From: Roseovarius sp.
GTDB lineage: Bacteria > Pseudomonadota > Alphaproteobacteria > Rhodobacterales > Rhodobacteraceae
Length of the DNA: 64,000 bases
Assembly: GCA_014359765.1 (NCBI GenBank)
Contig: JACIYT010000006.1
Span: 1-64,000 of the forward strand
Direction: 5' to 3'
The position numbers and the translations under genes are program-made. The notes beneath the pieces were generated by a model, which was not told the DNA's origin, did no database searches, and was given only the letters and a program-made list of their open reading frames with translations. Positions within the stretch are counted from its first letter, which is position 1, and every line of letters begins with the position of its first letter. Shown here piece by piece: positions 30,430 to 48,546 of the stretch.

Positions 30430-30666
30430 ATGACCCATACGCCCCACGAGTTGCACGAGGAATTTCCCCAGTTCGCCGACCGGATCCGGGAGTTGAGGCA
30501 GACCGACAGCCATTTCGCACGCCTCGCGGAGGAATATCACGAGGTCAACCGCCAGGTGCACCGCGCGGAATCGTTGCTCGAGCCGATGGACGAACTGGCC
30601 GAGGTGGAGCTGCGCAAGACGCGCGCCCGGCTGAAGGATGAAATCCATCGCCTCCTGAACGCCTGA
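30430..30666 (+). CDS. YdcH-family (DUF465) small protein
   Basis: A 78-residue, highly charged helical protein. The block FARLAEEYHEVNRQVHRAES followed by LRKTRARLKDEIHRLL is the DUF465/YdcH signature and predicts an antiparallel helical hairpin. Its function is not known. The sequence ATTCAAGGAGACGCACG-ATG gives a very good Shine-Dalgarno. An FNR-type box upstream suggests expression under low oxygen. Confidence 0.88.
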   Translation: MTHTPHELHEEFPQFADRIRELRQTDSHFARLAEEYHEVNRQVHRAESLLEPMDELAEVELRKTRARLKDEIHRLLNA

Positions 30667-30782: not shown

Positions 30783-30808
30783 TTAACCGGATGTTAAGAC
30801 TTCGTTAA
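30783..30808. promoter_or_regulatory. Triple CtrA-type half-site array (TTAA-N7-TTAA-N7-TTAA)
   Basis: TTAA occurs at 30783, 30794 and 30805, each exactly 11 bp from the next, giving two overlapping perfect TTAA-N7-TTAA CtrA boxes. TTAA is rare in this GC-rich sequence. The array ends 46 bp before the glycosyltransferase ATG, in a promoter position. Confidence 0.8.
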
Positions 30809-30854
30809 CCAACCGCCTCCTAGCCTCGTTTCCGCAAGAGGAAGGAGAACGGGC

Positions 30855-32777
30855 ATGGGGATCTCCGAATTGCGGCGGGCGGGGCTGGCGGGCGATCCGC
30901 GGGCAATCGATTCGCTCGGTCGCGATCTGGTCCGGCGCGGGCTGCTCAGCCGCGCCGATGCCGCGCGCGCGGCGCTGGTGGGGCGGCAATGCGCGACCTC
31001 GCCCGACCGCATCCTTCTGGCCGAGGGGCTCGCGCGCGAGGCGGATCTTCTCGACATCCATGCGCGCCATCACAACTGCCGCAGGCTCGATTCGGACGCC
31101 GTCGCACGCGCGGAACTGATCGAGACCGGCCTCGATCCCCGCCTCCTCTTGCGCAATGGCGCGGCGCTCCTGCGCGACGAACATGGCGCGCCGCGCCTCG
31201 CCCATGACGGGGCCGGGAACCCGCAGGCGCTGCGCCGCCTGCTGCCCGACGATCTCGCGCGCGCCCGCCCGATCATCGCGCCGCGCGCGGCGGTGCAGGC
31301 GCGGGTGGCCGAAATCCACCGCGAGACCCTGCGCGACAGCGCCGCCGCGCGCACACCCGAGGCCGAGAGCTGCCGCACCTGGCAAGGGCAGGGGGCGCGG
31401 CGCATGGGGCTCACCTGTGCCGCATTGCTGGTCATCGGCGCGCTCTGCCTGGCCTTTCCGCTCGGGGTGCTCGGGGTTCTGGCAGGCTGGGCGGCGTTCA
31501 CGCTGCTGATCGCCACCGGCCTCAGGATCGCGGCCTTCGTCGCGGCCATGGCGGGGCGGGACGCGCCGCAGGTCGCAACCGCGCCCGCGCCGCTGCCGCG
31601 CGTCTCGATCCTCGTGCCGCTCTTTCGCGAGACCGAGATCGCCCACGCCCTCGTCGCGCGGCTGTCGCGGCTGACCTATCCGAAATGTCTGCTCGACGTG
31701 ATCCTGGTGCTGGAGGAGACCGATCATCTCACCCGCGACACGCTGGCCGGGATCGACCTGCCGCCCTGGATGCGCCCGGTGATCGTGCCCGATGGCCAGC
31801 CCCGCACCAAGCCGCGCGCGATGAATTACGCGCTCGATTTCTGCGAGGGCGAGATCATCGGCATCTTCGATGCCGAGGATGCGCCCGAGCCCGACCAGAT
31901 CACCCGCGTCGCGCGCCGTTTTCTGAGCGCGCCGCGCGATCTCGCCTGCATTCAGGGGGTGCTCGATTATTACAATCCGCGGCAGAACTGGCTCGCGCGG
32001 TGCTTTACCATCGAATATGCGACCTGGTTCCGCACGCTGATGCCGGGCATGGCGCGGCTCGGCCTCGCGCTGCCGCTCGGCGGCACGACGCTCTATATCC
32101 GGCGCGACGTGCTCGAGGATCTGGGGGGGTGGGATGCGCATAACGTCACCGAGGATGCCGATCTGGGCTTTCGCCTCGCGCGCCACGGCTGGCGCACCGA
32201 GATGATCGACAGCGTGACCGAGGAAGAGGCCAATTGCCGCCCCTGGGCCTGGATCAGGCAGCGTTCGCGCTGGCTCAAGGGCTACATGACCACATGGCTG
32301 GTGCACATGCGCGCGCCGCGCCGCCTCCATGCGCAACTGGGGGCGCGGAAATTCTGGGGCTTTCAGGCGCATTTCATCGCCGCCGTCAGTCAGGTGCTGC
32401 TCGCGCCGGTGCTGTGGTCCTTCTGGCTGGTGATCCTCGGCCTGCCGCACCCTCTCGATCCGGTGGTGCCGCGCCCGCTCCTGGCGGGGCTCTGCGCGAT
32501 GTTCCTGGTTGCCGAGGTCATGACCATGTGCATCCACGCGGTGACGGTCTCGGGCGCGCGCCACCGGCATCTGCTGGCCTGGGTGCCGACGATGCATTTC
32601 TACGCCCCGCTCGCCGCGTTTGCCGCCTACAAGGCGCTCTACGAGCTGGTCTTCAGGCCGTTCTTCTGGGACAAGACCACGCATGGCCTGTCGGTTGCCG
32701 CGCGCGGGCGGGCGCGCTCAGACGGCGGGGTTGACCTCGCCGGAGTCAAGCTTGAGCCGGGTCACGAAGGCGTTTGA
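30855..32777 (+). CDS. Membrane family-2 glycosyltransferase with N-terminal GspE-N/MshEN-like domain
   Basis: A 640-residue protein in three parts. Residues 15-150 resemble the GspE-N/MshEN fold (SLGRDLVRRGLLSRADAARA), which binds c-di-GMP in some proteins. Two membrane helices lie at about 186-232. The GT2 catalytic domain (about 245-480) has DGQP, FDAEDAP (near 338), TED (433) and QRSRW (469-473), the D,D,D,QxxRW set of processive, BcsA-like enzymes. Further membrane helices follow. It probably makes or exports a surface polysaccharide; the product is unknown. The last 60 bp overlap the convergent GntR gene. Confidence 0.85.
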   Translation: MGISELRRAGLAGDPRAIDSLGRDLVRRGLLSRADAARAALVGRQCATSPDRILLAEGLAREADLLDIHARHHNCRRLDSDAVARAELIETGLDPRLLLRNGAALLRDEHGAPRLAHDGAGNPQALRRLLPDDLARARPIIAPRAAVQARVAEIHRETLRDSAAARTPEAESCRTWQGQGARRMGLTCAALLVIGALCLAFPLGVLGVLAGWAAFTLLIATGLRIAAFVAAMAGRDAPQVATAPAPLPRVSILVPLFRETEIAHALVARLSRLTYPKCLLDVILVLEETDHLTRDTLAGIDLPPWMRPVIVPDGQPRTKPRAMNYALDFCEGEIIGIFDAEDAPEPDQITRVARRFLSAPRDLACIQGVLDYYNPRQNWLARCFTIEYATWFRTLMPGMARLGLALPLGGTTLYIRRDVLEDLGGWDAHNVTEDADLGFRLARHGWRTEMIDSVTEEEANCRPWAWIRQRSRWLKGYMTTWLVHMRAPRRLHAQLGARKFWGFQAHFIAAVSQVLLAPVLWSFWLVILGLPHPLDPVVPRPLLAGLCAMFLVAEVMTMCIHAVTVSGARHRHLLAWVPTMHFYAPLAAFAAYKALYELVFRPFFWDKTTHGLSVAARGRARSDGGVDLAGVKLEPGHEGV

Positions 32778-33362
32778 GATGTGACTGCGCAGCGCCTGCG
32801 CCGCCGCCGCCCCGTCGCGCGCCTCGATCGCGGCGACGATCGCGGCATGTTCGGCCAGCGCATCCTCGCCGCGCCCCTCGGCCGCCAGCGATGTCGTCGC
32901 CAGCAGCGCCATGGAGCGATGCACGAGATCGAGCTGCTGCACGAGAAAGCGGTTATGCGAGGCGAGGTGGATCTGCTTGTGAAACCGCCGGTTGGCGCGC
33001 GACAGTTCCTTGGGGCGCCCGAGCAGCGTGCGATCCTTCTCCACCATGTCGCGCAGCACGCGCACCTCCTCGGGGGTGGCGTGGCGCGCGGCGAGCTGCG
33101 CGGCCAGCCCTTCGAGCTCGGCGCGCACGACGTAAAGCTCGGCCAGCTGGTTGTAATCGAGCGAGGCGACGATCAGGCTGCGCCCGTCGCGGGTCAGCAT
33201 GGATTGCGTCTCGAGCCGTTGCAGCGCCTCGCGGATCGGGGTGCGCGAGACGCCGAAGCGTTCGGCCAGATCGCTTTCCACGAGGCGGTCGCCGGGCCGG
33301 AAGGTGCCGGTGTCGATCGCTTCGAGGATCAGCGCATAGGCATCCGTGCTCGGGGTCTTCAT
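32718..33362 (-). CDS. GntR-family (FCD) transcriptional regulator
   Basis: A 214-residue regulator with an N-terminal winged helix (RPGDRLVESDLAERFGVSRTPIREALQRLE) and a C-terminal all-helical FCD effector domain (from about 80; RFHKQIHLASHN carries the metal-binding His). FCD regulators respond to carboxylates and amino acid derivatives. It lies one gene upstream of the glutamine-synthetase-like cluster and may control it through the TTTGATCAAA site at 34242. Its 3' end overlaps the convergent glycosyltransferase gene by 60 bp. Confidence 0.9.
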   Translation of the reverse strand: MKTPSTDAYALILEAIDTGTFRPGDRLVESDLAERFGVSRTPIREALQRLETQSMLTRDGRSLIVASLDYNQLAELYVVRAELEGLAAQLAARHATPEEVRVLRDMVEKDRTLLGRPKELSRANRRFHKQIHLASHNRFLVQQLDLVHRSMALLATTSLAAEGRGEDALAEHAAIVAAIEARDGAAAAQALRSHISNAFVTRLKLDSGEVNPAV

Positions 33363-47829: not shown

Positions 47830-48546
47830 ATGCGTGTATTGCTCGTCGAGGACGACCCCACCACGACCCGCAGCATCGAGATGATGCTGAGCCATGCCAA
47901 TCTCAATGTCTACACGACCGACCTCGGCGAGGAGGGGATCGATCTGGCGAAACTTTACGATTACGATCTGATCCTGCTCGATCTCGGCCTGCCCGACATG
48001 AACGGCCATGAGGTGCTTCGGCAATTGCGGCTGGCGCGGGTCTCGACGCCGATCCTGATCCTCTCGGGCGCCAATGACACCGAGAACAAGCTCAAGGGCT
48101 TCGGTTTCGGGGCCGACGACTACCTCACCAAACCGTTCCATCGCGATGAGCTCGTGGCGCGCATCCACGCGATCATCCGCCGCTCCAAGGGGCATTCGCA
48201 ATCGGTGATCCGCACCGGCAAGATCAACGTCAATCTCGATGCCAAGACAGTGGAGGTGGCCGGCCAGCCGGTGCATCTGACCGGCAAGGAATACCAGATG
48301 CTCGAGCTTCTGTCGCTGCGCAAGGGCACCACGCTCACCAAGGAAATGTTCCTCAACCATCTCTACGGCGGCATGGACGAGCCCGAGCTCAAGATCATCG
48401 ACGTGTTCATCTGCAAGCTGCGCAAGAAGCTGGTCGAGGCCACGGGCGGCGACAACTACATCGAGACGGTCTGGGGCCGTGGCTATGTGCTGCGCGATCC
48501 CGAACCCGGCGCGCGCTCCGGCGCGCCGCTCGCCATCGGCGCCTGA
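47830..48546 (+). CDS. ctrA: Cell-cycle/motility response regulator CtrA
   Basis: A 238-residue OmpR-type regulator. The receiver domain has [15 protein letters not shown], phospho-acceptor D51 in [11 protein letters not shown] and the T/S and K in ILSGAND and YLTKPF. The C-terminal winged helix ([26 protein letters not shown], then [14 protein letters not shown]) is diagnostic of CtrA. In Rhodobacteraceae it governs motility, gene transfer agent and quorum-sensing-linked genes and is usually non-essential. A CtrA-type box lies before it. Confidence 0.96.

Follow-up and report, generated by a model that had tools for sequence, protein, structure and literature searches.

An interlocked array of CtrA-type half-sites upstream of an MshEN-fold glycosyltransferase gene in Roseovarius

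In the Rhodobacterales papers considered here (PMC12363192, PMC4046655), flagella, gene transfer agents, quorum sensing and c-di-GMP turnover are the main processes to which CtrA is linked. Its consensus site reads TTAAC-N5-GTTAAC in a study of D. shibae and R. capsulatus (PMC7232146) and TTAA-N7-TTAAC by ChIP-seq in a stalked budding bacterium (PMC7200025). The nearest experimental precedent for extra CtrA sites is the pilA promoter of Caulobacter, where the upstream sites delay and repress expression (PMC11264516), and E. coli NfrB is the precedent for an MshEN domain that acts on a GT2 synthase (PMC8669469). Box, regulator, GT2 fold and MshEN domain are all of known kinds at the locus described here; the interlocked array of half-sites is unusual. 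Because related marine bacteria keep the box so faithfully, the CtrA site in front of this glycosyltransferase (GT) gene is very probably a real control point.

The array and its conservation

Direct reading of the 64 kb stretch of Roseovarius DNA analysed here (the window) places TTAA on the + strand at 30783, 30794 and 30805. The three tetramers, which together span 30783-30808 and stand exactly 11 bp apart, make two interlocked TTAA-N7-TTAA boxes with the middle half-site in common:

30783..30797, + strand: distal CtrA box TTAACCGGATGTTAA, from the sequence, the window and genome counts and the column profile
30794..30808, + strand: proximal CtrA box TTAAGACTTCGTTAA, with CC directly after it; this pair is conserved family-wide

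The initial annotation had described this geometry as two overlapping perfect boxes in DNA where TTAA is rare, and both statements were borne out. TTAA occurs 12 times in the window against 18.4 expected, and the only two TTAAN7TTAA matches are those of the array (100 shuffles gave 0.02 on average and never as many as 2). In the genome that carries the window (2.65 Mb scanned, 97.27% complete), the exact three-tetramer array occurs once and its reversed control not at all, and the longer pattern TTAACN5GTTAA has the array as its single place. These scans used exact regular expressions, which can miss near-motifs. Genome-wide enrichment of TTAAN7TTAA was looked for in the same genome and was not found (8 places, compared with 13 for the reversed pattern); the case therefore rests on conservation.

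A reference-genome scan with the GT protein gave 266 loci, of which the best 80, most of them from Roseovarius and its neighbours, were used. Three (L066, L075 and L082) were removed because the match begins within the gene or at the edge of a contig, leaving 77 readable promoters. Among these, drawn from the best 80 of 266 loci, all 77 carry the pair in the 250 bp upstream, 52 of them exactly and the other 25 with a single mismatch. Exact pairs number 82 in 19,250 bp of promoter DNA versus 4 in 1,003,109 bp elsewhere in the same near loci, a density about 1000 times that of the flanking DNA. Three or four exact half-sites in phase are present at 22 of the 77 near loci, and 63 of 77 have a three-half-site array once a single mismatch is allowed, against 0 of 1540 shuffles. 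The shuffles behind the mismatch counts, like those for the 61-region set below, keep base composition only. At the Roseovarius loci, some 50 bp separate the last TTAA from the start codon. The promoter of Roseovarius mucosus DSM 17069 (L019) carries an exact array of three half-sites. We rejected the third half-site as a trait of the Roseovarius clade, as 8 of the 22 near loci with at least three exact half-sites (L069, L072, L077, L080, L081, L083, L085 and L089) are not titled Roseovarius. Additional TTAA sites lie upstream of the main array in L069 (at -274) and in L017, L020 and L021 (around -112).

Across the family (Rhodobacteraceae), the GT had a match in 139 of 149 sampled genomes, one per genus. 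The first family set comprised 61 upstream regions, 60 fetched ones plus L098; it skipped 28 of the 29 loci L098-L126, where the local match began too late, and all of these except L103 (27 of 28) returned in the wider set. With a spacer of 7, the paired tetramer is found in 54 of the 61 regions (0.16% of mononucleotide shuffles), compared to 0-2 of 61 for each spacer from 3 to 6 and from 8 to 12. The wider set of 128 genomes is the 139 with a match minus the genome of the window and ten others whose match is fragmentary, weak or partial. An exact pair precedes the gene in 108 of these 128 genomes, again one per genus, although in one of the 108 (L315) the box starts 8 bases inside the match and not upstream. 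Of the 20 genomes with no exact pair, 17 have one with a single mismatch, compared with 23 of 400 shuffles at no more than one mismatch. The alignment of this promoter in relatives, proposed in the initial annotation, thus finds the pair kept both near Roseovarius and family-wide.

The column profile, built from 78 near and 60 of the 61 family rows, reads TTAA(C)-N5-(G)TTAACC with a weak A at +16/+17. The first half-site of the distal box (30783-30786) is conserved in near relatives and falls to background level in the family-wide profile. At least three exact half-sites occur in 9 of the 128 family genomes, compared with the 22 of 77 near loci. The array had been called denser than the ordinary paired box, and it is; the feature conserved in the family is nevertheless the pair. 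Genus-wide, the exact triple is found in 34 of 84 genomes (43 sites, overlapping ones counted apart) and the reversed control triple in 15 of 84 (17 sites). Of the 43 sites, 30 were fetched: 16, including the window's own, lie directly before the GT gene and 14 lie elsewhere.

To look beyond the family, we scanned 25 of 30 loci over roughly 300 bp of DNA preceding the open frame and the initial 330 bp of the frame itself. Four had no open reading frame by a simple rule and one (L335) runs off its contig; at the other 20, the box is present in 3 of 3 family members (window included) and in none of the 17 outside homologues with readable upstream DNA. The MshEN-GT2 homologues in other alphaproteobacterial families (L331-L352) have no CtrA box in the scanned stretch, and two of these outside homologues, L332 and L333, still have the relaxed c-di-GMP motif in both copies. 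Since the box is found within the family, is absent from the 17 homologues outside it and gains half-sites near Roseovarius, its link to the gene looks like a family innovation that was elaborated mostly near Roseovarius. The 20 family genomes with no exact pair, together with the outside homologues, indicate that this link is not universal. An order-wide search with a stricter pattern that includes a -10 element matched 30 of 292 genomes; the pattern is over-specified, misses the window itself and was discarded.

Predicted control by CtrA

The window also encodes the presumed regulator, an intact ctrA gene 17 kb downstream of the array:

47830..48546, + strand: ctrA, presumed binder of the array (NF045991, 429 bits, cut-off 350)

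A ChpT-type protein (HPTransfase) is encoded elsewhere in the genome. Both the array and the column profile agree with the two published CtrA consensus sequences, the second from a bacterium that we take to be Hyphomonas. CtrA control of the GT promoter, as the initial annotation had proposed, is strongly supported at the sequence level by the orthologous boxes, the intact ctrA, the ChpT-type protein and the matching consensus. Searches by term found the GT as a CtrA target in none of the main texts of PMC4046655, PMC12363192, PMC7232146, PMC6473078 and PMC7200025, and the main-text parts of the D. shibae and P. inhibens CtrA studies do not name it; supplementary tables, among them that of 101 D. 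shibae promoters, may list it.

The layout of the predicted promoter is as follows:

30820..30825, + strand: putative -10 region (CTAGCC), from the weak column profile and the R. sphaeroides rule
30832..30834, + strand: predicted transcription start, placed 23-25 nt after the array end
30842..30847, + strand: Shine-Dalgarno-like AAGGAG, from the sequence

The proximal box is expected to overlap the -35 region, and a consensus scan of the promoter for a sigma-70-like site found none. In R. sphaeroides, transcription starts 23-24 nt after the CtrA site and an A stands at -11 (PMC6180460). Applied from the end of the array, this spacing rule predicts a start at about 30832-30834. The A at 30822, at +17 from the last TTAA start, falls within the A-rich column pair at +16/+17, which sits where the rule expects an A and is only weakly conserved. 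A 78-residue open reading frame lies just upstream of the promoter (30430-30666, + strand) and presumably encodes a small coiled-coil protein of the YdcH/DUF465 type. Among the other TTAAN7TTAA places of the genome (8 in all), one (L007, G000:C37:92654-92668) lies about 1 kb before a gene whose product, judged by eye, resembles the flagellar hook protein FlgE. Genes with flagellar rod or hook domains occur at 6 places in this genome, and for the hook gene type a CtrA site has been predicted in D. shibae (PMC4046655).

We consider it likely that the array is a CtrA-responsive promoter activating a surface-polysaccharide GT2 synthase, with extra half-sites that act cooperatively and an MshEN domain blind to c-di-GMP. 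Phosphorylated through the CckA-ChpT-CtrA relay, a CtrA dimer would occupy the -35 region through the proximal TTAA-N7-TTAA box, and the bound CtrA~P would recruit RNA polymerase for transcription of the membrane synthase, whose product would be a surface polysaccharide. The box would be lengthened, in this genome and in near relatives, by one or two additional half-sites that keep the 11-bp register. The distal half-site would form a second interlocked box, load extra CtrA cooperatively and give a sharper or higher response to CtrA~P. What we infer in this scheme is that CtrA binds, that it activates instead of repressing, that loading is cooperative and that the product is a surface polysaccharide.

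It is possible, if unlikely, that CtrA binds the array and the extra half-site delays or dampens expression, as at Caulobacter pilA. There, sites 2-4 repress while site 1 drives transcription, and the promoter becomes more sensitive to the level of CtrA (PMC11264516). The extra pilA sites are, however, separate, off-consensus and partly N6-spaced, whereas the third half-site in the window is interlocked with the others in exact register. The natural series of promoters with two, three and four phased half-sites, with or without an intact MshEN pocket, forms a set in which the number of CtrA sites could be related to output.

The synthase and its MshEN-fold domain

The gene behind the array encodes a protein with two recognizable domains and overlaps a convergent regulator gene:

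30855..32777, + strand: GT2 glycosyltransferase with an N-terminal MshEN-fold domain, 640 aa (Pfam, alignment, model)
30912..31319, + strand: MshEN-fold N-terminal domain, about residues 20-155, with a degenerate c-di-GMP motif (profile, fold)
31596..32279, + strand: GT2 catalytic domain, residues 248-475, with DAED, TED and QRSRW (Pfam, alignment, fold)
32718..33362, - strand: GntR/FCD regulator, tail-to-tail with the GT gene (Pfam, neighbour comparison)

A 41-sequence alignment shows E287/D290, D339-A-E-D342, T432-E433-D434 and Q469-R-S-R472-W473 to be invariant. The structural model of the GT (mean pLDDT 86.7) has long helices on both sides of the GT2 domain, which we read as membrane helices, and its best solved fold matches are BcsA cellulose synthases. 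The description of the enzyme as a BcsA-like "D,D,D,QxxRW" glycosyltransferase therefore holds for the GT2 assignment, the TED and QxxRW motifs and the fold; its wording is loose for what the alignment resolves as E287/D290, DAED, TED and QRSRW. Identity as a cellulose synthase was rejected, as the CelA equivalog model (TIGR03030) scores 56 bits against a cut-off of 699. A Pfam search of the GT protein found no PilZ domain.

The 3' ends of the GT and GntR/FCD genes overlap by 60 bp, stop codons included. Among the best 80 of 266 loci, the regulator is kept in the same opposite orientation at 79 of the 80 (74-94% identity), and seven other tested neighbours from the window recur in 0-2 of the 80. 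The C-terminal tail of the GT (residues 608-640) is of low confidence in the model and lies partly within the overlap, and the regulator gene may thus be what keeps it conserved.

Assignment of the N-terminal domain required more than Pfam, whose MshEN family (PF05157) matches 32 of 40 orthologue N-termini at E values up to 1 (best 1.1e-16) and has no match in the window's own protein or in the close L010 and L013. A family profile searched against the PDB hit MshE (5htl) at 7.9e-18, and Foldseek returned the same structure as the best match of the domain's own model (pLDDT 94.2; E 5.6e-4; TM 0.76 by target and 0.63 by query). Profile and fold overturn the conclusion of "no MshEN" that Pfam alone would give for this protein, and the GspE-N/MshEN call made from the sequence was right as to fold and family, even though Pfam misses the very protein for which it was made.

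The c-di-GMP motif of MshEN receptors consists of two copies of RLGxx(L/V/I)(L/V/I)xxG(L/V/I)(L/V/I)xxxxLxxxLxxQ (PMC5013675). We looked for two such 24-residue motifs joined by a 5-residue linker and did not find them in the window protein, where Ser replaces both Arg residues, Gly and His replace the two Gln residues and Asp replaces the Gly in motif II. None of the 78 near proteins (the window's and 77 near orthologues) has the relaxed motif as published. Among 128 family members, 17 have both relaxed copies, 24 have one and 87 none; the counts of motif bearers are lower bounds, as they come from exact regular expressions. Orthologues L116 and L125 are examples that bear the motif. These substitutions do not support c-di-GMP sensing by the window protein, which the initial annotation had raised. 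The domain keeps its fold, has probably lost c-di-GMP binding and may serve as a scaffold or a partner-binding domain.

The distribution of the motif bears on two further readings, both of which give c-di-GMP a role. In the first, which we regard as doubtful, the GT is a core member of the family's CtrA regulon that originally had two inputs, CtrA and c-di-GMP, the second of which decayed near Roseovarius while the array grew to three or four phased half-sites; control in the Roseovarius group would then have moved from the enzyme to the promoter. This reading is weakened because motif loss is widespread in the family and does not track half-site number. Loss of the motif as a trait of the Roseovarius clade was rejected, given the 87 of 128 family members with no relaxed copy, as was a trade-off between half-site number and motif, since at least three half-sites occur in 2 of the 17 genomes that keep both motifs and in 7 of the other 111. 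According to the second, which the substitutions make decidedly doubtful, the domain still senses c-di-GMP or another ligand, so that the synthase is under dual control. The confirmed MshEN fold, the four places with GGDEF in this genome and the 17 family members with both relaxed motifs speak for such control. Against it stand the replaced motif residues of the window protein, the absence of the relaxed motif in every near protein, and Xanthomonas GspE (2D27), in which several key residues are changed and binding is said to have been lost (PMC5013675).

Other readers of the array and comparison with known systems

We find it very unlikely that the main reader of the array is another OmpR-family regulator or an Fnr/Dnr protein. 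The OmpR-type DNA-binding domain does have 8 matches in the genome, one of them ctrA, and the Dnr/Fnr site has the TTAAC half-site in common with that of CtrA (PMC7232146). Yet the conserved signal consists strictly of N7 direct repeats, which fits the ChIP-seq consensus of CtrA, whereas the Fnr-type site, TTAAC-N4-GTCAA, is an inverted repeat with another spacer. That the array is just an AT-rich stretch of promoter that arose by chance and is read by no regulator has almost no probability, because the window shuffles, the spacer specificity and the 82 versus 4 exact pairs in the near loci reject it, even if the motif is not enriched genome-wide. If the reading of the array as a CtrA-responsive promoter is correct, a CtrA box at a surface-polysaccharide synthase in 108 of 128 sampled genera would bring the "stick" half of the swim-or-stick choice under the same regulator.

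The enzyme resembles BcsA in its GT2 fold, TED and QxxRW motifs and several predicted membrane helices, and BcsA is its best fold match, but it has no PilZ match and scores far below the CelA equivalog cut-off. E. coli NfrB has the same types of domain, GT2 (with TED and QxxRW) and MshEN, yet its MshEN domain is C-terminal and binds c-di-GMP, whereas that of the window protein is N-terminal and has a degenerate motif (PMC8669469). Identity with NfrB (GT2 followed by a C-terminal MshEN) was rejected on this domain order. With the pilA promoter of Caulobacter and the ctp promoter of Agrobacterium, the locus has in common more than one CtrA box at a gene for a surface structure (PMC11264516). The pilA sites, however, are 31, 3 and 78 bp apart and off consensus, while the boxes in the window are perfect and have a half-site in common (PMC11264516). 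The locus also resembles CtrA-activated promoters with TTAA-N7-TTAA near -35, such as R. sphaeroides fla2 and the predicted flagellar sites of D. shibae, which match the array in motif, spacer, position before the start and TTAAC context. The locus differs from them in its target, a polysaccharide-type synthase, and in the three to four interlocked half-sites of its near relatives.
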